Assembly: GCA_026988525.1 (NCBI GenBank)
Contig: JALSLC010000004.1
Coordinates: forward strand, 1-64,000
Direction of reading: 5' to 3'
DNA: 64,000 nt
DNA from: Archaeoglobaceae archaeon
GTDB lineage: Archaea; Halobacteriota; Archaeoglobi; Archaeoglobales; Archaeoglobaceae
The first letter of the stretch is position 1. Every line of letters begins with the position of its first letter. The translations under genes were made by a program, and so were the position numbers. Below the pieces are notes generated by a model, which ran no database searches, had not been told where the DNA came from, and was given only the letters and a program-made list of their open reading frames with translations. Of the stretch, positions 31,751 to 56,098 are shown in pieces.

Positions 31751-32446
31751 TTAACTTAAATCTCCACAAGAACAAAAAACTTCGTTTATAGCTGAAAAAA
31801 CATCATCAAAACCCTCTTTTTTCAGTGCTGAAATTTTTATAGTTCTATACCTAACTGTAGTTTCTTCTACAAAATCTACAAGCTTTTCCATTAATTCAGA
31901 GAGTACTCCACCTTCTTTGAGCATTTCTTTAACTTTTAATGGCGTTAATTCAAATTTTGTAGTGTCACACTTGTTAAAAACGGTGATTGTTGGAATTTCA
32001 GTTCTTAAAGATATTACAGCATTTTGAGCTAATATAGATACGTAATTTTCAGGGGTTGAAGCCACTTTTGCATCTACAATAAATATAGCAATTGTCTTAT
32101 CACTATTAGCTATTTTTTCGGCGATATCTGTACCTGAGCTTAGATATAAGAATAGTTCCATTTGGCCGGGTGTATCGTACAAAACGTAGTCATCTTTTAA
32201 AATTAATTCGTCAATGTAGTTTAATGATAGCTCCATAGATTTTATCAAGGCACCATTTATACCTAAGTTAAAATCTTTCATAATTTTTTCTGTTCTAATA
32301 AAATCTCTAATATCTTTATCAGCTTTATATATTGGATCTGATGCAGGATCCAAATTTACAGCTTTTGCATCATTTAAATATTCTAAAAAAGACTTTACAA
32401 AAGTGCTTTTTCCACTACCAGCAGGTCCTATTACTACGATGTTCAT
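31751..32446 (-). CDS. GPN-loop-type GTPase with variant GIN loop
   Basis: A 231-residue SIMIBI GTPase. Walker A is GPAGSGKST (residues 6-14), switch II is YDTPGQMELF and the base-recognition motif is FNKCDTTK. The family's signature GPN loop, which inserts into the partner's active site in the dimer, is present here as GINGAL, with Ile in place of Pro. The start is ATG 32446. The frame is open back into the tRNA-Ser gene, but those codons are not credible. Archaeal homologues resemble Pab0955; eukaryotic ones help assemble RNA polymerase II. Confidence 0.88.
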   Translation of the reverse strand: MNIVVIGPAGSGKSTFVKSFLEYLNDAKAVNLDPASDPIYKADKDIRDFIRTEKIMKDFNLGINGALIKSMELSLNYIDELILKDDYVLYDTPGQMELFLYLSSGTDIAEKIANSDKTIAIFIVDAKVASTPENYVSILAQNAVISLRTEIPTITVFNKCDTTKFELTPLKVKEMLKEGGVLSELMEKLVDFVEETTVRYRTIKISALKKEGFDDVFSAINEVFCSCGDLS

Positions 32447-32504
32447 GGTTTTAAGTTGAGAGCTTAGTGAAATTTTGTTTTCGGTTTTACTTTCAAAGAA
32501 AAAA

Positions 32505-44559: not shown

Positions 44560-45045
44560 TTGTATGAACTTGACGTTGATAGAAGTGTAAAAATTATAAC
44601 TTCTATTGCTCTAATTTTCCTTTTAATTTTTGGTTATATTTGTTACATATACGATGAATTGAAAATATTCGTAGTTTTGGTATTGTTTATTTTTTTTCTT
44701 TTTTTGATGATGCCGACATCAGTGGAAATTAAATCAGATCATATAAAGGTTAATAGAGTCTTAGGCTCAGTTAAATGTCCTATAAGCAAAGATGTCGAAA
44801 TTTTAGATGACTTAGGCATTGGTTTATTGATTGGAACTGCTGGTCTTTTTGGGTGGTACGGTGTTTACAGTATAAGAGGTAAGACTGCTCTTGTTTACTC
44901 AAGAAAAAACAAAAACTTAGTATTGATTAAAGCGGGAAGAAATTACGTTTTTGGAGTTAAAGATCCTGATGAATTCATTTCTAAGTTAAAACAATCGGAT
45001 GGTAAAACTACTTGTGTCCTAAATACTGGAAAACTTTCGCAATAG
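44560..45045 (+). CDS. Small membrane protein with PH-like domain
   Basis: A 161-residue protein with two adjacent transmembrane helices near the N-terminus (about 10-48) followed by a beta-rich cytosolic domain resembling the bacterial-type PH domains (IKVNRVLGSVKCPISKDVEI, GWYGVYSIRGKTALVYS). TTG 44560 follows GGAGGTGTAA. The last 103 bases overlap the convergent DUF123 gene. Function unknown. Confidence 0.6.
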   Translation: MYELDVDRSVKIITSIALIFLLIFGYICYIYDELKIFVVLVLFIFFLFLMMPTSVEIKSDHIKVNRVLGSVKCPISKDVEILDDLGIGLLIGTAGLFGWYGVYSIRGKTALVYSRKNKNLVLIKAGRNYVFGVKDPDEFISKLKQSDGKTTCVLNTGKLSQ

Positions 45046-45368
45046 TATAGGTGTGATTTACACTTACAATCTGAGCAACCAAAACCTTTAATAAAACTAT
45101 ATTTTTTTGCCAGATCTTTTGATAGTTCACACTCTTCTTTATTAAATAAGTAAGCACAAACCGGTAAGGCTTGATTTGATGTAGTTAGATAGTCTATATG
45201 CCATCTTAACTTTTTATCTTTTTTGAAATGTCTGCAAACTCTGTGAATCCCATTCTTTGCACTTCCAACGTACATGTAATAGCCTCTACAAAATTCCACT
45301 TTCCCAAGAGATCCAACACTTGCAGAAAAATTATTTAAGACTCTAACAATTAATATATAAGATTGCAT
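44943..45368 (-). CDS. DUF123 GIY-YIG-like nuclease domain protein
   Basis: A 141-residue protein of the archaeal DUF123 family, related to GIY-YIG nucleases: GYYMYVGSAKNGIHRVCRHF, KLRWHIDYL, GFGCSDCKCKSHLYY. The Cys/His-rich GCSDCKCKSH motif is typical. Family members end shortly after this motif; here about 30 further residues follow, exactly in the stretch that overlaps the convergent gene. ATG 45368 lies three bases after the last pilin-like gene, so it may be the end of that operon by read-through. Confidence 0.78.
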   Translation of the reverse strand: MQSYILIVRVLNNFSASVGSLGKVEFCRGYYMYVGSAKNGIHRVCRHFKKDKKLRWHIDYLTTSNQALPVCAYLFNKEECELSKDLAKKYSFIKGFGCSDCKCKSHLYYCESFPVFRTQVVLPSDCFNLEMNSSGSLTPKT

Positions 45369-45371
45369 TTT

Positions 45372-46127
45372 TTATTCCACCTTTACATTTAAGTTGTACT
45401 TTGTAAGAATCATTTCAGAAAAATGTATTGTTACATACACTTTGTTACCCTCTAATAGAGTTTGTATTTCAGCATTGTTTTGATTTCCTCTCTTAATTCT
45501 GTTAAAGAAATCGTACCAAGCCTTAGCGTAGTCAGATGTTATATTTAATTTGGCATATCCCGGTCCAAAAACTCTAACTTTTGAAGAATTGAATTTTACA
45601 TTAACTCCTACAAAGCTGTTGCCTCCTACAGCTCCACTTCCATTCAAAATGATCAACGACATAAAAAACACAGTTTGGTTATGAATAACTTTTTTATAAA
45701 TAAAAATCCTTGGTGCAGAAACTATTGTTTCACCACTACTTTTAAGCCATACTCCTCCATTTTCAAATGAGATTTTGTAATTTTTGTATGCGTATTCTAT
45801 TGAACCAGTATATCCATTAAAAGTGTAAATTGGTTTTAAACCTGAAGTATTGTAAACTTTTAGCTCAATGTAGCCACCTTTTCCAACAGACATACTTCCT
45901 CCGCTTAAAAGTATTCTGACATATCTATTGTATGTGCCAGAGTATGCTACATAGTTAATCATGTTCTGAATTTTTTCAAATCCTTGGGCTAAGCTTTCAT
46001 ACTTAACTTTCTCTTTGGCTTCACCAACCAAATAGTACGTATGAGAGAATACTAAGGATAGCACAGCTACCACTATGGCAAGAATCATTGTGTATCCAAG
46101 TACACTTGAAACAGCTTTATCTTTCAC
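45372..46127 (-). CDS. Type IV pilin-like protein (operon gene 6)
   Basis: A 251-residue protein with an N-terminal archaeal class III signal: KDKA then VSSVLGYTMILAIVVAVLSLV, cleaved by an FlaK/PibD-type prepilin peptidase after Ala. The hydrophobic segment would form the filament core helix. The rest is a beta-rich external domain with glycine runs (GGSMSVGKGG). The GTG start follows GAGGTGAT. Sixth gene of the pilin-like operon. It could be a minor pilin. Confidence 0.75.
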   Translation of the reverse strand: MKDKAVSSVLGYTMILAIVVAVLSLVFSHTYYLVGEAKEKVKYESLAQGFEKIQNMINYVAYSGTYNRYVRILLSGGSMSVGKGGYIELKVYNTSGLKPIYTFNGYTGSIEYAYKNYKISFENGGVWLKSSGETIVSAPRIFIYKKVIHNQTVFFMSLIILNGSGAVGGNSFVGVNVKFNSSKVRVFGPGYAKLNITSDYAKAWYDFFNRIKRGNQNNAEIQTLLEGNKVYVTIHFSEMILTKYNLNVKVE

Positions 46128-46136
46128 AGTATCACC

Positions 46137-46835
46137 TCAAATCAGTATTTTTATTCCATAAACACATACAGTAACGTTTCCCTCAGTTTCAGCTGTTACC
46201 TCATTACCACTAACACTGACTTTAAATCCCTGTTTTTTAAGATACCTTTCCCACGCAGAAGGATAGTTCGTTTTCATTACTATTTTAAGTTCAGAGTTAG
46301 GATAGTAGTACGTTTTCTGGTAAATATACCTCATATATACGTTAACTATTCCATAACCACCCGCGGAGCCTTCCCCACTCAAATCTATAATATTAATAGC
46401 TATATTGTTTCCAGATTTAATTAGCTCAGGTGGATAAATTATCCAATCGTTTATACCCTCTTTTTTGAATACTCCCCCCATTTCCACTGCTAAATACTTA
46501 TTTCCAGAATTATATACCAATTCACCGGGATTGTTGGTTACATCAATTAGTGAATTGTTAATGTATATGTAAATATAGAAATTGTGCGACACTCCAATAT
46601 ACCCTCCAGATGGAGGAAACTTGACAGTGGTTGATGGAACTACATCTGAAGAGACTAAATCCATCTTCTCTTTTGCGAAAACAATTGCTGAAACGACATT
46701 TCTCATTTTTATATTTTCTTGACTTGAAAGTATAAGAGGGTAGCTATATGATAGAATGGCAGATAGCGATATTGCGATAATTATTAGAATCATTAAGTTT
46801 CCGACAACTTCTGATACACCTTTTGAATTTCTCAT
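46137..46835 (-). CDS. Type IV pilin-like protein (operon gene 5)
   Basis: A 232-residue protein. The class III signal NSKG precedes VSEVVGNLMILIIIAISLS, with Glu near the usual +5 position lying at +3. A beta-rich external domain follows (GGYIGVSHNFYIYIYINN). ATG 46835 after GAGGTGAAT. It ends nine bases ahead of the next gene. Related in layout, not obviously in sequence, to gene 6. Confidence 0.75.
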   Translation of the reverse strand: MRNSKGVSEVVGNLMILIIIAISLSAILSYSYPLILSSQENIKMRNVVSAIVFAKEKMDLVSSDVVPSTTVKFPPSGGYIGVSHNFYIYIYINNSLIDVTNNPGELVYNSGNKYLAVEMGGVFKKEGINDWIIYPPELIKSGNNIAINIIDLSGEGSAGGYGIVNVYMRYIYQKTYYYPNSELKIVMKTNYPSAWERYLKKQGFKVSVSGNEVTAETEGNVTVCVYGIKILI

Positions 46836-46840
46836 TAAAT

Positions 46841-49222
46841 TCACCTCAGCTTAAAACTTGCCGTTTTTATAGTGGTAACGTTTAACTTTCTTGCTGGTAG
46901 GGGTATGGTTACAACCTTAGACTTAACTACATCAAAGTATGTTACATTTGATACATTTACGACATCTGTTAGTAAAATACCTGTTTTTGAAGTCTTGATT
47001 GTAATGCTTCCCAACCAGCTTTGATTAATTCTTATTGCCGGAATGCTCCAAGAAACTTTGGTTCCATTAGATGTTGGAGTTATTTTTGCACTTCCGGAGG
47101 CAGAAACTACCTGTAAATCAGGTGGTATAACATCGGTGATTGTAACGTTTTCGGCAACCTTAGTTAAAACATCTTTTGCTATCGACGTATATATGCTCTT
47201 TAATTCTTCAGCATTTGCTGCAAAGTAGTATTTACCCCCCGTAATTTCTGCTATTTCTTGTAATAAAGTTGCGTTTGCATCACTTCCGTAACCTATTGTG
47301 TATATTATATAACCTAAGTTCTTAGCTCTATTAGCCTCGTAAATAACGTCTTTTATAGCTTGTCTAACGTTGTATTGCCCTTTGAGATCTATGTTTGCGT
47401 TCCCATCTGTAAGTAGTATTATTACATCTATAGCAGGACTGTTTTTACTGTTGTTAAAACTTTGTAGTTCATCTATTGCCTTGTCTATTCCTGAAGCCAT
47501 TGCAGTATAACCTCCAGCAGTTAGCGTATCTATTGATGAATTAACGTACGATGTATCGTTTGTAGGTGGCACAACTACATAGTAAGCATAAGTACTAAAT
47601 CCAACAACACCTACATAGTCAAACTTTCTTAAAAATCCGTTGAATGTTTTAGCTGCAATCTTTGCAGCATCTATTTTTGGTATGTATGTATTTAGATAAA
47701 AGTTTTCGATAGTATTTGGAGGAAGTATTGGTACTACATAAGCTGTATATCCAGGTGAAGGATTTGTTACGTTTATCCAGGCGGAACTACTATTTGCGAC
47801 AGCAAGTAGCTTTGAACTTGTTGTATTATCCTGAAGCCAAAGATATAAAGTTGCAGGAGTTTGAACTGGAATCAATTGAATTCCAAGTTCAGTAGCTTCT
47901 TTCGGCACATCTATTCCGTATGACTTATAACTTGGATTAACTGTTACTGTATCTGATAGTATTGTTTTTACTATGCTATAAACACCAAAGAAGGAACTTT
48001 TAACTTCAAAAACATAGACGTTGGCTACTTCAGAGGTTATTTTGGCATCCTCTATTGCCAAACTCCAAGTTCCACTTTGAGGGTTATTTATCAAATATCC
48101 ATAACCTAACTGTCCATCATAAATCCAAATGTCAGAAGCTTGAACATAATTACCGTTGGGGGACTTTATAAATATTGAAATTGGATAAATATTGTAATTA
48201 GCGTAGAAAGTTTCAAAATCCGATGTCGTTACAAAGATGAAATAACTCTTACCTGACGTTAAATTAAACGAAACTACTGCCGGATTTGGTGAAATTGACC
48301 CTGTATTACTGCTTAGTGGTGTAAACTCACTCATACTGCCTGAGGTATCTATTGTGTGAATTACAGTTATATTAACAGATGTTTGATTTATCCCATTTCC
48401 GTATAAAAATATGTTTACAGTCGAAGTACTACCGGGAGCAATAGTTGAAGGTACAACGAATTTATTGACGTAAAGTTTTGCTACCGGACTTCGAGTTACA
48501 TTTACATTTACTTTATCATAACTTACATAGCCATAACTATCCTTTACTTCAAGAGTTACTGTATAGTTGCCCGGTGAACTGTATGAATGATATATTATTC
48601 CACTCTGTGGATTTAGTGGATCGTACTCTTTCCAACCACTTGATGGATAGCTACTTCCATCACCAAAATACCATTTATAGTAGAGTGTACCCTCTCCATA
48701 AGAATTTGTCATATCAAAAGTAACATTTTCATTAACTAATGCTTCAGTTGGATAGACTATTGCAACTGCAGTTGGCATAAGATGTATTGATGTATTTAAC
48801 ACTATTTCATGCGTAATTTCGCTACTAAATGTTGTACCCTCTGTTACAAAACCAAGTGTAGATTGCCCGAGATCCACTTTTTCACTCCATACGCTCGATT
48901 TCACTGTTAGCTTATTGTTTTTAATTTCAATGCTATACGTATGTTTGCCTACGGATTCGGGCATGTAAACTTTGCTTACTACAGTGCCATTTTTTGGAGC
49001 AATAATCATCATATCTGTTATTTGGGAAGTTATCTCACTGGCAACATCTTGAAACTGATTTTTCATAGCATTTGAAACCGGTAACTTAGACATCAATGTA
49101 TTTAGTTGAGGAATCATAAAAGCCATTACAAGAGCGAGAATACCTACTATTAATATATATTCAACCATTACAGATACTCCTGATTTTTCATCTTTAAACG
49201 ACAACTGTTTCCGTATCGACAT
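46841..49222 (-). CDS. Large pilin-anchored PKD/vWA surface protein (operon gene 4)
   Basis: A 793-residue protein. A class III-like start (KSG then VSVMVEYILIVGILALVM, residues 14-34) anchors it like a pilin. A PKD domain follows at about 155-242 (WYFGDGS, SPGNYTVTLEV). The vWA domain has its MIDAS motif DTSGS at 292-296, but the remaining vWA parts resume only at about 518 (DAAKIAAKTFNGFL), with Thr573 and the DGNAN Asp606. The roughly 215 residues between carry two beta domains. The C-terminal part (690-780) is a DUF11/CARDB-like beta domain. ATG 49222 after AGGTG. It may be a tip adhesin of a filament made by its neighbours. This is inference from domain layout. Confidence 0.8.
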   Translation of the reverse strand: MSIRKQLSFKDEKSGVSVMVEYILIVGILALVMAFMIPQLNTLMSKLPVSNAMKNQFQDVASEITSQITDMMIIAPKNGTVVSKVYMPESVGKHTYSIEIKNNKLTVKSSVWSEKVDLGQSTLGFVTEGTTFSSEITHEIVLNTSIHLMPTAVAIVYPTEALVNENVTFDMTNSYGEGTLYYKWYFGDGSSYPSSGWKEYDPLNPQSGIIYHSYSSPGNYTVTLEVKDSYGYVSYDKVNVNVTRSPVAKLYVNKFVVPSTIAPGSTSTVNIFLYGNGINQTSVNITVIHTIDTSGSMSEFTPLSSNTGSISPNPAVVSFNLTSGKSYFIFVTTSDFETFYANYNIYPISIFIKSPNGNYVQASDIWIYDGQLGYGYLINNPQSGTWSLAIEDAKITSEVANVYVFEVKSSFFGVYSIVKTILSDTVTVNPSYKSYGIDVPKEATELGIQLIPVQTPATLYLWLQDNTTSSKLLAVANSSSAWINVTNPSPGYTAYVVPILPPNTIENFYLNTYIPKIDAAKIAAKTFNGFLRKFDYVGVVGFSTYAYYVVVPPTNDTSYVNSSIDTLTAGGYTAMASGIDKAIDELQSFNNSKNSPAIDVIILLTDGNANIDLKGQYNVRQAIKDVIYEANRAKNLGYIIYTIGYGSDANATLLQEIAEITGGKYYFAANAEELKSIYTSIAKDVLTKVAENVTITDVIPPDLQVVSASGSAKITPTSNGTKVSWSIPAIRINQSWLGSITIKTSKTGILLTDVVNVSNVTYFDVVKSKVVTIPLPARKLNVTTIKTASFKLR

Positions 49223-49616
49223 ATTTAACACCTTGATTAAAGAAAATTATTCTTACAGTATAACAAGAAATTTTGTTTGTGCTTGTATATTTAACATCTA
49301 AAATATTTATACTGGCATAACATCCATGTTCTGCATAGAGTGCTTCTACTTGCTCGTTTAACTTTAAAGCGTAATTTAAAAATCCAGATGGTTTTGACTT
49401 TGCGTAGTTTTTTAAATCAACTAATGCTATTTTTCTCAAATTCTCTATTGGATATTTGGGAAATGTGAGCTGAGTTGTACTGCTCTCCATACCTGCTAAT
49501 ATATTTTGAGTATATACTAAGGACAGTTCTGCAAGTAAAACTGAGATGAACAAAGCTATAATTATTATAATTTGTCCTTTTTTATCTTTTATAAATTTGA
49601 AATTCAAACTCTCCAT
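49194..49616 (-). CDS. Type IV pilin-like protein (operon gene 3)
   Basis: A 140-residue protein with the signal KDKKG followed by QIIIIIALFISVLLAELS, a class III-type leader. The short external domain has two Cys residues about 18 apart (GCYAS, ISCYT), possibly forming a disulfide. Start ATG 49616 with GGTGAG nine bases upstream; it overlaps gene 2 by 13 bases and gene 4 by 29 bases, so translation is coupled. It is one of the smallest in the set. Confidence 0.72.
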   Translation of the reverse strand: MESLNFKFIKDKKGQIIIIIALFISVLLAELSLVYTQNILAGMESSTTQLTFPKYPIENLRKIALVDLKNYAKSKPSGFLNYALKLNEQVEALYAEHGCYASINILDVKYTSTNKISCYTVRIIFFNQGVKYVDTETVVV

Positions 49617-50110
49617 AGTGTTAGTCTCACCTCCAAAACAACTGGATAACTCGAACTTTCTGCAGTCTTTGTAACAAACGGAGAATTATTAACAAAATTA
49701 CTGCTATCTATAACCAAATATCTCGATACTGTGATTGTATTCGATGTGGGAATATTGTGAGTTATTTTATAATCCAAAATAGATGTGTTGTTGTAGTAAT
49801 ATACATCCAAGTTAAACATCACATCTTTTGGCAAACACTTTTTAATAGAATTAATTAGGGACAAGGTAGATGAATTGCTTGAATTGATGTGTTCGAGAGC
49901 GTATTCAAGAGTGTCGTTAAGTAAACTTTGTTTTGGATTATCAAACAGTCTTAAAATATCTTTACCATATTGACTTAATTGAACATCTGTTATTTGAGCT
50001 GATTGAGGAGCTATTAAAAGAGTTGATCTGAAGAGGAAGTAGGCTACTACAAGCAAAAGTAAGGAGGCTACAATACTTTCAAGAGTGAAAGTCTGACCTT
50101 TATCATTCAT
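49604..50110 (-). CDS. Type IV pilin-like protein (operon gene 2)
   Basis: A 168-residue protein with leader NDKG followed by QTFTLESIVASLLLLVVAY; the Glu near +6 is as in pilins. The external domain is helical then beta-rich. ATG 50110 is three bases after GGTGAT; an open frame to 50146 exists but lies within gene 1. Part of a tightly packed operon. Confidence 0.75.
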   Translation of the reverse strand: MNDKGQTFTLESIVASLLLLVVAYFLFRSTLLIAPQSAQITDVQLSQYGKDILRLFDNPKQSLLNDTLEYALEHINSSNSSTLSLINSIKKCLPKDVMFNLDVYYYNNTSILDYKITHNIPTSNTITVSRYLVIDSSNFVNNSPFVTKTAESSSYPVVLEVRLTLWRV

Positions 50111-50114
50111 AGTA

Positions 50115-50999
50115 TCACCATACACAAACAACCAACTTTGCTGCAATTCTTCCAGCTACATACTCTCCAACTGGAGAGTATATCAGATATCCGGCTAAGT
50201 TATGGGATACTATAGTTAGATTTAGTAGACCTGAAGGTAAGTTAGATACACTGTATATTCCAGGGGATAGAGTTCCCTTACTCGGTATTCTCAAAATTTT
50301 TGGGCCACCCCATCCTTTTCTGCTAACTTTTATTTGTATCCAGCTACCATATCCACTCCCCCAAACAGATGTATTTGTTACTACAAACAAAAAGGTAGAG
50401 GGAGTTGTTACATTGAAGAGTTTTGTTCTATTAACTCCTTTTTGAGATGTAGTTATATCATATACTACGGATGCATTTTTGAAGTAAACAATTCTTTCAA
50501 ATCTAAGTACATCTCCATACTTTGGAACTGGCAAACCTATTAGTAGGAGTGGTTTTCCATTGTAGTAAGAGTAGATTGGATTGGATGAGTTACTATCTAA
50601 GTATTGAATAGATATGTTGTAGTTTTTAACACCAAACATATTTGCTATGTAATCGTAACCTCTGTAGTTATACAGTTCAGAAAAGTTTAGAATTTTTTTA
50701 ATGGATAACTCACACGGATTTCCATCACTCAAACCAACTCTGATAGTTACATCATCGCTTTTCCAATGATTCTCCCAATCCGTTCCATTGCAACTTCCGT
50801 TAGTCCAGTAGCCCGGACTTTCGGAGAGTAGAGAAGCTATTCTATATGCATTGGCTGTTAAGGATATATCACTCCTTTGAACAACAAATATTGAAGGTAT
50901 ATACTGAAGTATAAATATGAAAGTAACCATGAATATTGTAAGGGCTACAAGCACATCGAGACTTAACTGCCCCTTGCAATCATTTAATTCTTTCACCAT
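50115..50999 (-). CDS. Type IV pilin-like protein (operon gene 1)
   Basis: A 294-residue protein whose leader is DCKG followed by QLSLDVLVALTIFMVTFIF. A large external domain rich in Asn, Ser and Tyr, with two Cys residues (GSCNGTDW, GNPCELS), follows. ATG 50999 is preferred; a TATA-like TTTATACATT about 25 bases upstream suggests a leaderless mRNA. An extension to 51047 would add a second hydrophobic run and is unlikely. First gene of the six-gene pilin-like operon. Confidence 0.75.
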   Translation of the reverse strand: MVKELNDCKGQLSLDVLVALTIFMVTFIFILQYIPSIFVVQRSDISLTANAYRIASLLSESPGYWTNGSCNGTDWENHWKSDDVTIRVGLSDGNPCELSIKKILNFSELYNYRGYDYIANMFGVKNYNISIQYLDSNSSNPIYSYYNGKPLLLIGLPVPKYGDVLRFERIVYFKNASVVYDITTSQKGVNRTKLFNVTTPSTFLFVVTNTSVWGSGYGSWIQIKVSRKGWGGPKILRIPSKGTLSPGIYSVSNLPSGLLNLTIVSHNLAGYLIYSPVGEYVAGRIAAKLVVCVW

Positions 51000-51110: not shown

Positions 51111-51938
51111 ATGAAGTACGCTACAGAGAAAGCAGTTATAGTTATATCTTTTTTAGTAGGTGTAGCCGTACTTTCAGCATCAATTATTTCTATGTATAAT
51201 GATTTTTCGACTGGAAAAAGTTTTGAATACTTAATGACAGATATTGTGTTCTTTGTTTTTGGTGTCGTTCTTACAGGAGGTGCTTTAAGAATTTACAAAA
51301 AACTTATCACTCTTTCAACTATTGCTGATGATCTTTTTGAAGAGTTGGTATTTACAAGATTAAGACCTGTCTTAGAGGAGGTGGCCTACAATACTGTAGA
51401 ACTCAGCGAAGTTAAGGCTGAACTTGAAAAATTAACAAAAAAAGTGGATTCTCTTGAAAGTTTTAAAGCTCAAACGGGCTTTGTAGGAGATGTTTCATTT
51501 TACATGAGAACTATTATTGTTAGTTTTGTTTATGTTTGTTCTTATCTTTTAATGCTAAACTACTATACAGATTATACACCCTATCTTTTTGTTGTACTCT
51601 ACATAATATGGTGGGCTTTTATAACAAGGGAATTCAAATTGTTTAGTAGATTTGAAGCTTGGCTTGTTATGGGTATTCCAGTTTTGATAGTTCCAGCCAT
51701 GTCAATTGTCATACAAAACTTACTCGGAATTCCCACACTAATGGGCATAATTTTCTCAACATCTCTACTTTACGCATACATGTACTACCTTTATGCAAAA
51801 GAATTGAGTTTGGAGTCCGGTAAACAAAAATCAGATAATCAAAAAGAAAGTTACCAAAAGAAAAAAGAAAAGCCCAATTTCTTTTTAAGAAAAACGTCAT
51901 CTTTTGTTAGCGATATTATAAGATGGCTAAAAAGCTAA
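51111..51938 (+). CDS. Polytopic membrane protein with internal coiled coil
   Basis: A 275-residue protein. Two N-terminal transmembrane helices are followed by a cytosolic helical/coiled-coil section (about 85-130, LEEVAYNTVELSEVKAELEKL broken at 20), then four more helices and a Lys/Ser-rich cytosolic tail. No family recognised. It is divergent from the pilin-like operon and convergent with the signal peptidase gene (the stops abut). Its place suggests a role in the surface structure. Confidence 0.6.
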   Translation: MKYATEKAVIVISFLVGVAVLSASIISMYNDFSTGKSFEYLMTDIVFFVFGVVLTGGALRIYKKLITLSTIADDLFEELVFTRLRPVLEEVAYNTVELSEVKAELEKLTKKVDSLESFKAQTGFVGDVSFYMRTIIVSFVYVCSYLLMLNYYTDYTPYLFVVLYIIWWAFITREFKLFSRFEAWLVMGIPVLIVPAMSIVIQNLLGIPTLMGIIFSTSLLYAYMYYLYAKELSLESGKQKSDNQKESYQKKKEKPNFFLRKTSSFVSDIIRWLKS

Positions 51939-52679
51939 TTATTTAATCTTTTTCCTGTAACTATAACTTTCAAGCTCTAAGTAAACGTAGGCACTTAAAC
52001 ATATTATGATTATTGCTATAGCATAGCTCTTAAAAGTTTTTATTAAATTCTGGTAAAATAGAAATTCTTCACCGTATGGACCAATACTTCTCATTTCTTT
52101 TGCATTCAATATAAAGTACTTACCTAAGCCGGGGATAACTACTGGTTTACCCCCTATCATAACAGCCTGTGCTATTACATCACTTCTATGTATTGGTATT
52201 AGATCTGGGCCTGAGGCATCGCCACCAGTATATATTAAATTTCCAACAATTCTGAGAACTCGGTGTGAAACTGGAAGACCAACATCAGGCCTTCTAAACA
52301 TTATTATGTCGCCGGGTTTTGGATTAATGTATATTGCTTGTGCTAAGTACATATCACCTCTATGAAATGTGGGGTACATACTATCGGACACTACTACTGC
52401 AAAAAACAGTTTGTGTGTAAGAGTCAGTGTAAGTAACACACTAAAAACAGCTAAGGTTAAGGCAATTCTTCCATAAGGCGGATTTTCATGTTTAGATAGT
52501 TTTATTGCATTTTTAACGAAATCTTTTCTCTTTTTCCCAAACATATATGTTCTAAATCTTTCTACATGTGCAATTTTACATCCAGCTTTGATAAGTGTAA
52601 CTATTATAGACATACCCGCTATAACTATCAATCCAAAAGTTTCTGATACTATCAGTTCTAACTCCATAGAACCCACCAT
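51939..52679 (-). CDS. Signal peptidase I (Sec11/S26B type)
   Basis: A 246-residue membrane peptidase that removes Sec signals. The catalytic Ser is in VSDSMYPTF and the His of the archaeal/ER-type Ser-His pair is in PVSHRVLRI; the conserved Asp region is GGDASGPD. Extra hydrophobic helices at both ends are longer than in typical archaeal Sec11. The start is ATG 52679 or 52667, overlapping the winged-helix gene by about 20 bases. It may serve the secreted proteins encoded around it. Confidence 0.88.
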   Translation of the reverse strand: MVGSMELELIVSETFGLIVIAGMSIIVTLIKAGCKIAHVERFRTYMFGKKRKDFVKNAIKLSKHENPPYGRIALTLAVFSVLLTLTLTHKLFFAVVVSDSMYPTFHRGDMYLAQAIYINPKPGDIIMFRRPDVGLPVSHRVLRIVGNLIYTGGDASGPDLIPIHRSDVIAQAVMIGGKPVVIPGLGKYFILNAKEMRSIGPYGEEFLFYQNLIKTFKSYAIAIIIICLSAYVYLELESYSYRKKIK

Positions 52680-52978
52680 GTGACTAAAATTAGTGTTACA
52701 AAGAACATAACTACAATTGCAATTTCAATAGTCATTTTTAAAAATTTTTTTGTATTTACATAGTATTCGATTGGATACACTCCATTAACCCACTTTAGTT
52801 CTCTGTATGCTTTTTCAGTTGGGTTTATCTCCCAGTCAATGTAACCCTCATCAATCAATCTTTTTAAAATTACATTTAGAGTTACTTCTGTAATTCCACA
52901 ACTATCAGCAATTTTTTTTGAATTTTTTTCACCAAATATTATTTTTTTAAGAACACACTCTTCTATGTCTGAGATCAA
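52658..52978 (-). CDS. Membrane-tethered winged-helix protein
   Basis: A 106-residue protein: a winged-helix domain (residues about 5-60; SKKIADSCGITEVTLNVIL, then RLIDEGYIDWEI) followed by one C-terminal transmembrane helix (TIEIAIVVMFFVTLILVTWW). The DNA-binding part would face the cytoplasm. TTG 52978 after GGTGAG. It sits between the large secreted protein and the signal peptidase in one operon. Similar in build to the protein encoded at 55709. Confidence 0.65.
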   Translation of the reverse strand: MISDIEECVLKKIIFGEKNSKKIADSCGITEVTLNVILKRLIDEGYIDWEINPTEKAYRELKWVNGVYPIEYYVNTKKFLKMTIEIAIVVMFFVTLILVTWWVLWS

Positions 52979-53002
52979 AATTTCTCACCTTTTTTGTTTG
53001 TT

Positions 53003-54883
53003 TTAATCTCTCATGAATATCCTTACTATTATCAGTATAGCCAATATAGCTGCTGATAGCGCAACTATCAAAGCACCAGTTTTTCTTTCAGGTTTTCTTA
53101 TAGGTGTTGAAATAGGTACTGGCGTTTTTGATTTGACAAAAAATACTTGCATTAAATTGGTTCCTGGTATTGTAACTCTATAGCTACCCGGTTTTTCTGG
53201 TATATACTGGAAAGTTATCTTTTCAGATTGTCCTGTTTTAAGAAATATTGATTTGTTAAACACTACTTTACCGTTTACTGCAACTTCTACAAGCTTTTTA
53301 CCACTTGTTCCAAAGTTCTTAACTTCAAAAGTTATATTGATTGGCGTACTTACATTTACAAGAGGAGGCATCCCTGTTCCTGGAGGACCTTTAACTTCGA
53401 GGGATAGATATTTGAACTTGGTTGGAATTTCTGTTATGGTAGATATTTTAACTACAATTCCTTTATCTATTCTTAAGTTGTAGTAAGAGTCGTATAAGGA
53501 TTGAGGTGTAGTTGGATTCCACTCTCCAAGTACTGATAGTTTAATTGCAAGTTCGTCTTTGTAGGTAGTCCAGTAACTGGGATTATCACAAATAAGCGTA
53601 CCGTTATCTTCAAAGAATTGTTTTAGCAAATTAACATTAAACTTGGGATTTGCTCCAACATAAAATAGTACTTTAACGTCTTTTAAATTGTACTCATCTC
53701 TAACTCCAACGTACCTTATTGGTGCATGCGACTCTTTTTTAATAATATCTAAAAGTATTGGTAAAATTTTTTCTGCCCTGCTATCACTACCTTTCAGAAG
53801 GGCTACATTTACGATTCCCTTGTATTTGTTGTGAGTGTAAACGTAGGCGAGTATATTTGTAAGCATTTTCACCGCACTCTCTCTATTTAAACTTGAAGTA
53901 TTCAGATTGTTTAAAGCCTCACTAATGCTAAGGTTGTTTTCTGAGCTAATTCCTGCACTACCAAGAACATAGTTGTTTGGAGAATACACTACCGTACCAT
54001 TCAAAATTTTTCCAAGAACAACATTTCCATCGTATATTAGTGGAGAAATTACAATTGGTTGTGTTAAAATATATTTTGCATGATTAGCATAGACTTTTAT
54101 TTTGTGAGTACCACCTTTTAGTGGTGGAATTTCAAGAGAAACAACTTTAACACTTCTGGCGGATATAGTTACATCTTTGGAATCCAAAATTTTGCCATCT
54201 ACAATTAGATTAACAGTCGTTTTTGCTTCAATGTCTGTTGGATTTAAGATAGATACTTTAAGTTTATTAGATACACCAACTGGTAGTGTTTTAGCCTCTA
54301 ATTTTTCATTAAATATATATAATTTTATAGGTAAAACTTTACTTATATAAAAATTCAATTTTTTCTCTACGTAAGGAGCTTCCTTTCTTGGAATAGTAGA
54401 TATTGATGGTGAAGTTTCTCCTGAGTATAGTATTTTATAATAAAGATCATTGTAGCTAACCTGCGTTGGGAGTGTATTTAAAACATCAAATGCATATGCA
54501 TCTATTGTGTATCTACCACCTATCCAATCATCAGGAATATCTATTTTCAAAACTTTGTAGATCTTATCTTTATAGCTAAGAGTAGAAACACTTACTACTT
54601 TTCCATAAACAACGTATCCTTTTGGATCCTTTATTATAACTACAAAATCAACAGCAGCAGCCCTATTTATATTAACATTTTCAACTCCAAGATACAGTTT
54701 TATTGTACTTCCCGGTTTGAAAACAACAGGATTTCTTGGGATATAGTGATCGTAGTCATAAACTTTACTAACTATGGCAACATGAAAATCTTCAGAGGAG
54801 AAAGCTGCACATAGATGGATTGAAGTAAATAGAAGCAATATTGAGATAACAAGGATAGCAACCCTTATACGGAGAGTTGGCAT
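53003..54883 (-). CDS. Large secreted, C-terminally anchored CARDB-like protein
   Basis: A 626-residue protein with a signal peptide (residues about 5-27), several beta-sandwich domains, a central alpha/beta segment (about 330-470) that looks like a flavodoxin-like or GATase-like fold, a CARDB-like domain (about 500-590, NITFEVKNFGTSGKKLVEV) and a C-terminal transmembrane helix with a short basic tail. It is the first gene of the operon that continues with the winged-helix protein and signal peptidase. No firm family; probably exposed at the cell surface. Confidence 0.65.
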   Translation of the reverse strand: MPTLRIRVAILVISILLLFTSIHLCAAFSSEDFHVAIVSKVYDYDHYIPRNPVVFKPGSTIKLYLGVENVNINRAAAVDFVVIIKDPKGYVVYGKVVSVSTLSYKDKIYKVLKIDIPDDWIGGRYTIDAYAFDVLNTLPTQVSYNDLYYKILYSGETSPSISTIPRKEAPYVEKKLNFYISKVLPIKLYIFNEKLEAKTLPVGVSNKLKVSILNPTDIEAKTTVNLIVDGKILDSKDVTISARSVKVVSLEIPPLKGGTHKIKVYANHAKYILTQPIVISPLIYDGNVVLGKILNGTVVYSPNNYVLGSAGISSENNLSISEALNNLNTSSLNRESAVKMLTNILAYVYTHNKYKGIVNVALLKGSDSRAEKILPILLDIIKKESHAPIRYVGVRDEYNLKDVKVLFYVGANPKFNVNLLKQFFEDNGTLICDNPSYWTTYKDELAIKLSVLGEWNPTTPQSLYDSYYNLRIDKGIVVKISTITEIPTKFKYLSLEVKGPPGTGMPPLVNVSTPINITFEVKNFGTSGKKLVEVAVNGKVVFNKSIFLKTGQSEKITFQYIPEKPGSYRVTIPGTNLMQVFFVKSKTPVPISTPIRKPERKTGALIVALSAAILAILIIVRIFMRD

Positions 54884-54973
54884 AATTCAGAAGGTTATGA
54901 AAAGAGATAAATAATTTATCATTTTTTTCTAAATAGGGTTAGACTTTCTTGGAATTTCAATAAAGGTGATAAT

Positions 54974-55705
54974 ATGCCAATAGTGGGCATATGTTCTGGT
55001 AAAGGTGGTGTTGGAAAGACTACTATCTCAGCAAATCTTTCTGTAACTTTATCACTCTTTGGTAAGGTTGTAGTAGTTGATGGTGATGTCATCCTACCAA
55101 ACTTACACACAATTTTTGCTCTTGAACCTTCTGTAACTTTGCAGGATGTTTTAGAGGATAAAGTATCATTAAAAGATGCTGTATATGCTCTAAAAATTGG
55201 AGACTTTTCTATTGATATTCTGCCATCCCGTTCAGAGGATATAGCTATGGACAAATTTATTGAAATAGTTTATTCCCTAAGGGATGTTTATGACTTTGTA
55301 GTATTGGATATTGCTGCTGGTTTAAACAAGTACGCTGTAATGCCAATGATGACTTGCGATAAAGTGTATATTGTAGTAAACCCAGAAGAAACTTCGATTG
55401 TTGATGCATGCAAAGTGAAAAAAGTGATTGATAAAATGGACGTTAAATTTGATGGAGTTGTAATAAATAGATACAAGGGGGAAAAATGGGCAGTAGCTAT
55501 GGTAGAAAAAAGAATAGGAAATATTGCGGGAATAATTAGAGAATCGAAAGCAATAAAAAGAGGATGGGAAGAAGGTTTTATCGTAACTGCAGTAAAACCA
55601 GAGGCTAAAGTGTCTGAGGAATTTTACGTTCTTGCAAGGAGAGTAGCTGGTGAGAATGTATATCCAAAACCTTATGGTAAAATAAAGTATATCCTGAGGT
55701 GGTAA
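54974..55705 (+). CDS. MinD/ParA-family ATPase
   Basis: A 243-residue deviant-Walker ATPase: CSGKGGVGKTTISANL (residues 7-22), VVDGDVILPNLH, VVLDIAAGLNKY. Archaeal MinD-like proteins position archaella, pili and other surface machinery, which suits this neighbourhood. No C-terminal amphipathic helix for membrane binding is obvious. ATG 54974 after AGGTGATA. The membrane-tethered winged-helix gene follows after three bases and may supply membrane attachment. Confidence 0.88.
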   Translation: MPIVGICSGKGGVGKTTISANLSVTLSLFGKVVVVDGDVILPNLHTIFALEPSVTLQDVLEDKVSLKDAVYALKIGDFSIDILPSRSEDIAMDKFIEIVYSLRDVYDFVVLDIAAGLNKYAVMPMMTCDKVYIVVNPEETSIVDACKVKKVIDKMDVKFDGVVINRYKGEKWAVAMVEKRIGNIAGIIRESKAIKRGWEEGFIVTAVKPEAKVSEEFYVLARRVAGENVYPKPYGKIKYILRW

Positions 55706-55708
55706 GTT

Positions 55709-56098
55709 ATGGGTGATTTAGATTTTTTAATAGATGATGGGTCATTTCATGAAAAAAGATTTGAATTAGATATTAAAAAAGAAATTAAAAATAAAAAAAA
55801 GAGTGTAGAATATATTACTGAAGTTGAAAGAGCAATTTTACTTTGCTTAAAAGACACTAAGAATGTAAGATTGATATCCAAGATGACTGGTTATCCGGAA
55901 GTAGTAATTACAAAAGCAATAGAAAGATTGATTGAAAAGGGGTATGTTGATGACCAATTGAATATACTGGTAGATATTAATAAAAGAAGAAAAAAATTGG
56001 AAAACAAAAGAAGCAACAAGTTACTTGCAATAGACATTGCAATTGCAATAGCAGTTTTAGTGTTTATAGTAGCTCTTGTTTACTACTTCTTTTCGTAA
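55709..56098 (+). CDS. Membrane-tethered winged-helix protein, partner of MinD
   Basis: A 129-residue protein. After an acidic N-terminus comes a winged-helix domain (about 45-85: AILLCLKDTKNVRLISKM, YPEVVITKAIERLIEKGYV), a basic linker and one C-terminal transmembrane helix (IDIAIAIAVLVFIVALVYYFF). It is in the same operon as the MinD ATPase. The 3' end overlaps the convergent pfkB-type gene by 35 bases. Same layout as the protein at 52658. Confidence 0.68.
   Translation: MGDLDFLIDDGSFHEKRFELDIKKEIKNKKKSVEYITEVERAILLCLKDTKNVRLISKMTGYPEVVITKAIERLIEKGYVDDQLNILVDINKRRKKLENKRSNKLLAIDIAIAIAVLVFIVALVYYFFS

Follow-up and report, generated by a model that had tools for sequence, protein, structure and literature searches.

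A pilin operon of an Archaeoglobaceae archaeon that probably encodes a type IV pilus tip complex with a VWA-bearing subunit and assembly machinery in trans

Introduction

Class III prepilin-type leaders are cut by prepilin peptidases, and the pilins are assembled by an ATPase together with a TadC platform protein. For the type IV pili of bacteria, complexes that prime the filament or form its tip are well documented. In archaea, pilin sets and ATPase/TadC modules are exchangeable and sometimes unlinked, which allows modules to act in trans (Makarova et al., 2016; PMC4858521). PilB3-C3 of H. volcanii, for example, serves pilins whose genes lie at other loci and can stand in for PilB1-C1 (PMC4858521, PMC6491452).

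The described systems closest to the locus studied here are the euryarchaeal clade-2 PilB4-like type IV pili (PMC4858521), represented by a locus on pHME505 of H. mediterranei (E6P09_RS16570-RS16615). This locus encodes a KaiC-like DUF7125 protein, a PilB-type ATPase of 931 aa, TadC, and proteins of the DUF7287, DUF7288, DUF7261, DUF7266 and DUF7289 families, with a Pilin_N gene near the set. From the extra N- and C-terminal parts of its ATPase, we infer that it is equivalent to the HVO_1160 (PilB4) locus of H. volcanii. Here we compare with these systems a six-gene operon from a heat-loving Archaeoglobaceae archaeon, located in a window of 64,000 nucleotides (the whole stretch of DNA analysed), which is contig C4 of a 1.43 Mb genome that is 99.8% complete. 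A previous sequence-only reading had described the six genes as adjacent, overlapping pilin-like genes with no assembly ATPase or platform gene nearby, which may form either a minor-pilin complex served by machinery encoded elsewhere or a new surface filament.

Results

All six open reading frames are present at 45372-50999 on the minus strand and are transcribed in the order p6, p5, p4, p3, p2, p1, the first gene starting with the ATG at 50999. The features of the operon and its surroundings are as follows, with a slash at the predicted cleavage site.

50115-50999, minus strand: p6, DUF7287 pilin, leader MVKELNDCKG/QLSLDVLV (longest ORF to 51047; Pfam DUF7287 E=1.1e-6, over the cut-off)
49604-50146, minus strand: p5, DUF7288 pilin, leader ..MNDKG/QTFTLESIV (Pfam DUF7288 E=9.8e-16)
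49194-49616, minus strand: p4, small pilin in the DUF7261 slot, leader KDKKG/QIIIIIALF (DUF7261 E=0.24)
46841-49231, minus strand: p3, modular pilin, leader KSG/VSVMVEY (Pfam DUF7266 2e-7, PKD_4 4e-11, VWA 1.6e-14)
46137-46844, minus strand: p2, DUF7289 pilin, leader NSKG/VSEVVGN (Pfam DUF7289 7.9e-17)
45372-46127, minus strand: p1, DUF7289 pilin, leader KDKA/VSSVLGY (Pfam DUF7289 4.6e-17)
44943-45368, minus strand: DUF123 gene directly after p1 (DUF123 E=1e-25)
51111-51938, plus strand: membrane/coiled-coil protein accompanying the pilin set (38% identical to a neighbour of a distant pilin set in locus L066)
51939-52679, minus strand: S26 signal peptidase, conserved neighbour (TIGR02228 2.7e-14; beside the set in L062, L066 and L069)
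53003-54883, minus strand: surface protein with CARDB repeats and a C-terminal membrane segment, conserved neighbour (CARDB 1e-10; L062, L066 and L069)
54974-55705, plus strand: MinD/ParA-type ATPase, conserved neighbour (CbiA 5.5e-15; L062, L066 and L069)

With longest-ORF starts, the genes overlap by 32, 13, 38 and 4 bases and leave one gap of 9 bases, so that the earlier description of overlapping genes holds at four of the five junctions and fails at one. Comparison with one congener places all six under purifying selection (pN 0.11-0.22, pS 0.72-0.84). A promoter scan returned fewer sites than shuffled sequences, using a bacterial promoter model that is not applicable to archaea. Next to the operon, a block at 51111-56098 (membrane protein, S26 signal peptidase, HTH protein, CARDB protein, MinD, HTH protein) adjoins the pilin set in genus g1, that of the window genome, and most of its genes also lie beside the set in genome G037 of another family, where the pilins are about 25% identical. 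The S26 signal peptidase of this block may be a dedicated part of the pilus system.

Class III prepilin-type leaders are predicted on 6/6 of the operon proteins, in agreement with the earlier reading, by a rule that calls for K/R plus a G/A/S cleavage site followed by an uncharged hydrophobic stretch. In the part of the same genome that was scanned, 8 of 208 other ORFs pass this rule, and four of these eight are an archaellin and pilins. At this background rate six leaders in a row would be expected with a probability of about 3e-9, a value that is merely indicative because the rule was tuned on these six leaders. The motif also recurs in orthologues, some of which have a shorter predicted N-terminus (M-EKG/VSEVLG, MNEKG/QAFTLES). 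A stricter rule, in which acidic and amide residues were forbidden in the helix, caught three of the six and missed p2, p4 and p5, and was relaxed.

Pfam assigns p6 to DUF7287, p5 to DUF7288, the start of p3 to DUF7266, and both p2 and p1 to DUF7289. The DUF7261 match of p4 is weak in the window and stays below the cut-off in relatives, though it is stronger in some of them; the positional equivalent of p4 in H. mediterranei passes the cut-off, and within the genus p4 is the most conserved of the six (77-82% identity). p1 has a weak similarity to Pilin_N (E=0.014), and its AlphaFold model (mean pLDDT 87) shows a long N-terminal helix and a beta head, which is a pilin fold; a PDB fold search with this model gave no significant match. 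An NCBIfam search found no pilin families for the six proteins. Against Pfam, the set had no match to the N_methyl domain of type IV pilins at E up to 1 and none to TadE/TadG, the only related hit being a weak Flp_Fap match to p3 (E=0.098).

The gene order p6-p5-p4-p3-p2-p1 is kept throughout Archaeoglobaceae. Outside this family single-protein tblastn was too weak, and iterated profiles were used instead. Of 60 related genomes, 47 yielded DUF7288, and of 296 genomes sampled from the phylum, 180 yielded DUF7266. On H. mediterranei pHME505 the five pilin families of the window stand in identical order directly behind the ATPase and TadC. The suggestion of a new surface filament is not supported, since euryarchaea widely share this pilin set.

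The subunit that sets this operon apart is p3, a protein of 796 aa that consists of a DUF7266 pilin module of about 150 aa, a PKD domain, a VWA domain split by beta domains, and a DUF11-like end. Its first MIDAS motif (DTSGS) lies at residue 295 and is separated by about 220 residues of beta domains from the remainder of the VWA domain, where further motifs (GYTAM near 574, LLTDG near 604) complete a MIDAS scored as intact. Among 21 long p3 proteins, the first motif (DxSxS) is kept in all and the third, by pattern, in 15. The AlphaFold model of p3 has a pLDDT of 60.6, under 50 for the pilin part and moderate for the VWA and inserted domains, and in a PDB search it matches solved VWA and PKD domains. 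The p3 proteins of Archaeoglobaceae metagenome genomes are 60-75% identical to that of the window. The long form, with PKD, split VWA and further beta domains, occurs in most Archaeoglobales, and other euryarchaea have a short form of 137-180 aa, which ends where the PKD domain begins in the window p3 (147 aa for the DUF7266 subunit of H. mediterranei). In G015 (L055:7382-9769) and G037 (L066:7042-9765), the p4 slot rather than p3 is occupied by an Ig-like-domain protein of 795 or 907 aa, and G016 has, next to the set, a gene for a separate VWA protein whose signal peptide is of the ordinary kind. A changeable adhesive head would be expected to show up in this way, as a module carried by one subunit or another. 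Elsewhere in the window genome, contig C35 encodes, next to another ATPase-TadC pair, a protein of 784 aa (L040:6391-8745) that combines a prepilin-type leader with Ig-like Big_1 and DUF2341 domains; it is a possible second modular pilin adhesin.

The lack of nearby machinery genes that had been noted is confirmed: for about 13 kb to either side of the operon there is no assembly ATPase and no TadC gene, and none was found in the window; a 266-aa sub-cutoff match at 32309-32473 is 13 kb away. Among 40 related loci, a linked ATPase and TadC occur in 9 and are absent from the fetched stretch in 31, several of which are on short contigs. Since a linked ATPase is lacking from most orthologous loci too, its absence here has no diagnostic value, and the rule that pilins without a nearby ATPase are unusual fails in this group.

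The proposed search for orphan machinery genes in the rest of the genome was productive. An archaellum ATPase and platform are encoded on C36, a pilus ATPase-TadC pair on C35, and another such pair on C3, whose ATPase (L041:9294-10685) has one in-frame TAG. An orphan ATPase is found on C21, and TadC genes are found on C32 and C39, for a total of five TadC proteins in the genome. The TadC gene of C32 is preceded, right at the contig start, by a 73-aa ORF that looks like the tail of another ATPase truncated by the contig end. The genome also has one prepilin peptidase, encoded at C3:56281-56577, and, elsewhere, four PilA-family Pilin_N genes.

A link between the operon and two of these genes comes from genome G010 of the sister genus g6, where the locus L058 reads p6-p5-p4-p3-p2-p1-ATPase-TadC-DUF123. 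In the window the DUF123 gene begins 3 bases after p1, and the ATPase-TadC pair is missing at exactly that junction. The G010 ATPase is 74% identical to the C21 ATPase and the G010 TadC 67-69% identical to the C39 TadC, these being the closest relatives of the G010 pair in the window genome, and in the tree the g1 and g6 ATPases group together as a single clade (bootstrap 100%). ATPase and TadC are on different contigs, with unrelated flanking genes, in every g1 genome in which both were found. In the g1 genomes checked, the C39-type TadC is longer by about 130 residues at its N-terminus and its gene lies behind a MinD-like gene; in two of these genomes the C21-type ATPase gene is followed by TBP. 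On C39 (L045:56-3685), a coiled-coil gene, the MinD-like gene and the extended TadC form a unit that is kept in genus g1. The pair may have left the g1 operon or may have entered the g6 operon, and the direction is ambiguous because more distant genera hold the ATPase-TadC pair as an operon apart from the pilins.

The ATPase tree (bootstrap 54% for clade A, 87% for clade B) offers a second line of comparison. Both VWA-bearing sets with a linked ATPase (G010 and G011) have clade-A ATPases, and clade-B ATPases are found in all eight linked sets that lack a VWA domain (G012, G016, G022, G026, G028, G031, G046 and H. mediterranei). This match between ATPase clade and head type is a pointer to C21 and C39 as partners rather than proof, because the lineages are non-independent and clade A is weak. 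The C32 TadC, with its truncated ATPase tail, is a second candidate partner.

Discussion

We think it rather likely that the operon supplies pilins to a type IV pilus of the euryarchaeal kind, encoding a six-subunit tip or initiation complex in which the VWA head of p3 acts as an adhesin and for which the machinery is supplied in trans. The single prepilin peptidase of the genome would cut all six leaders, and the six subunits would together build a small hetero-complex to initiate and cap a filament. The shaft of that filament is probably made of a PilA-family pilin from another locus. The small DUF7266 module would anchor p3 in the tip, with its PKD domain and MIDAS-bearing VWA head exposed as adhesin, and the ATPase and TadC platform would come from other loci, those on C21 and C39 being the best candidates. 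The earlier idea of a minor-pilin complex with machinery elsewhere gains support from the peptidase, ATPase and TadC genes of the genome and from the orthologous sets that adjoin an ATPase and TadC.

Instead of a tip on a PilA filament, the six genes could specify a whole pilus of their own, with p4 or one of the two DUF7289 proteins as its major pilin. A dedicated major pilin has been proposed for the PilB4-type system (Makarova et al., 2016; PMC4858521), p4 has the small size and high conservation that would suit this role, and the Pilin_N similarity of p1 points the same way. However, each pilin family has only one or two members and small pilins do not occur as a tandem family; a Pilin_N gene also adjoins the H. 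mediterranei set, and the window genome has Pilin_N genes of its own, which leaves this arrangement doubtful in our view. Some features of the operon, namely the lack of a major pilin and the signal peptidase and CARDB surface protein as conserved neighbours, would also suit a membrane-bound pseudopilin complex without a filament, such as a surface sensor or a secretion piston, in which the VWA head would stay near the cell surface. That several relatives have a linked ATPase and TadC, and that the related PilB1 operon of H. volcanii is experimentally tied to adhesion (PMC6491452), makes such a complex quite improbable. The absence of the G010-type pair could finally mean that the locus lost its machinery and survives as a relic that makes no structure, but six intact genes kept across the genus under purifying selection lead us to reject this reading, and the ATPase, TadC and peptidase genes in the genome add to making it highly implausible.

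Taking the tip complex with machinery in trans as the preferred explanation, a broader and more tentative proposal is that archaeal pili carry an exchangeable tip complex whose adhesive head is added to a different subunit in different lineages. In most Archaeoglobaceae p3 would bear it as VWA/PKD, in G015 and G037 p4 would bear it as Ig-like domains, and in G016 its place would be taken by a separate secreted VWA protein. Head type would shift along with ATPase clade, and tip and motor could thus co-evolve even when unlinked. A limited literature search turned up no account of a modular archaeal pilin with a VWA domain. The present set supplies names, an order and a testable candidate adhesin for such a protein, and it is a clear natural case of a pilin operon separated from its motor genes.

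Like the PilB4-like pili of euryarchaea (PMC4858521; H. mediterranei pHME505), the window set has the DUF7287-DUF7288-DUF7261-DUF7266-DUF7289 order and prepilin-type leaders. It differs from them in having no ATPase or TadC in the operon, in the separation of ATPase and TadC from each other in genus g1, and in the PKD-VWA head of its DUF7266 subunit. With PilB of Streptococcus sanguinis (PMC8179133), for which a tip adhesin role has been proposed, p3 shares a small pilin module and a MIDAS-bearing VWA domain. However, p3 is archaeal, has DUF7266 instead of N_methyl, and carries an extra PKD domain and inserted beta domains, and its adhesin role is drawn by analogy. The bacterial Tad tips formed by TadE, TadF and TadG (PMC12075869) likewise combine a few minor pilins with a single large subunit of modular build, their genes lying close to those of the motor or apart from them, but they have two or three subunits where the window set has six, and the window set has no TadE/TadG family match. 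Judged by sequence families, the set groups with the pilin sets of euryarchaeal type IV pili. In the proposed model it would act in the manner of modular-pilin tip complexes, but it fails the family tests for bacterial PilB and TadE/G. What it adds to the described systems is an archaeal pilin that bears a VWA domain, the short and long forms of that pilin, and the split machinery of genus g1.
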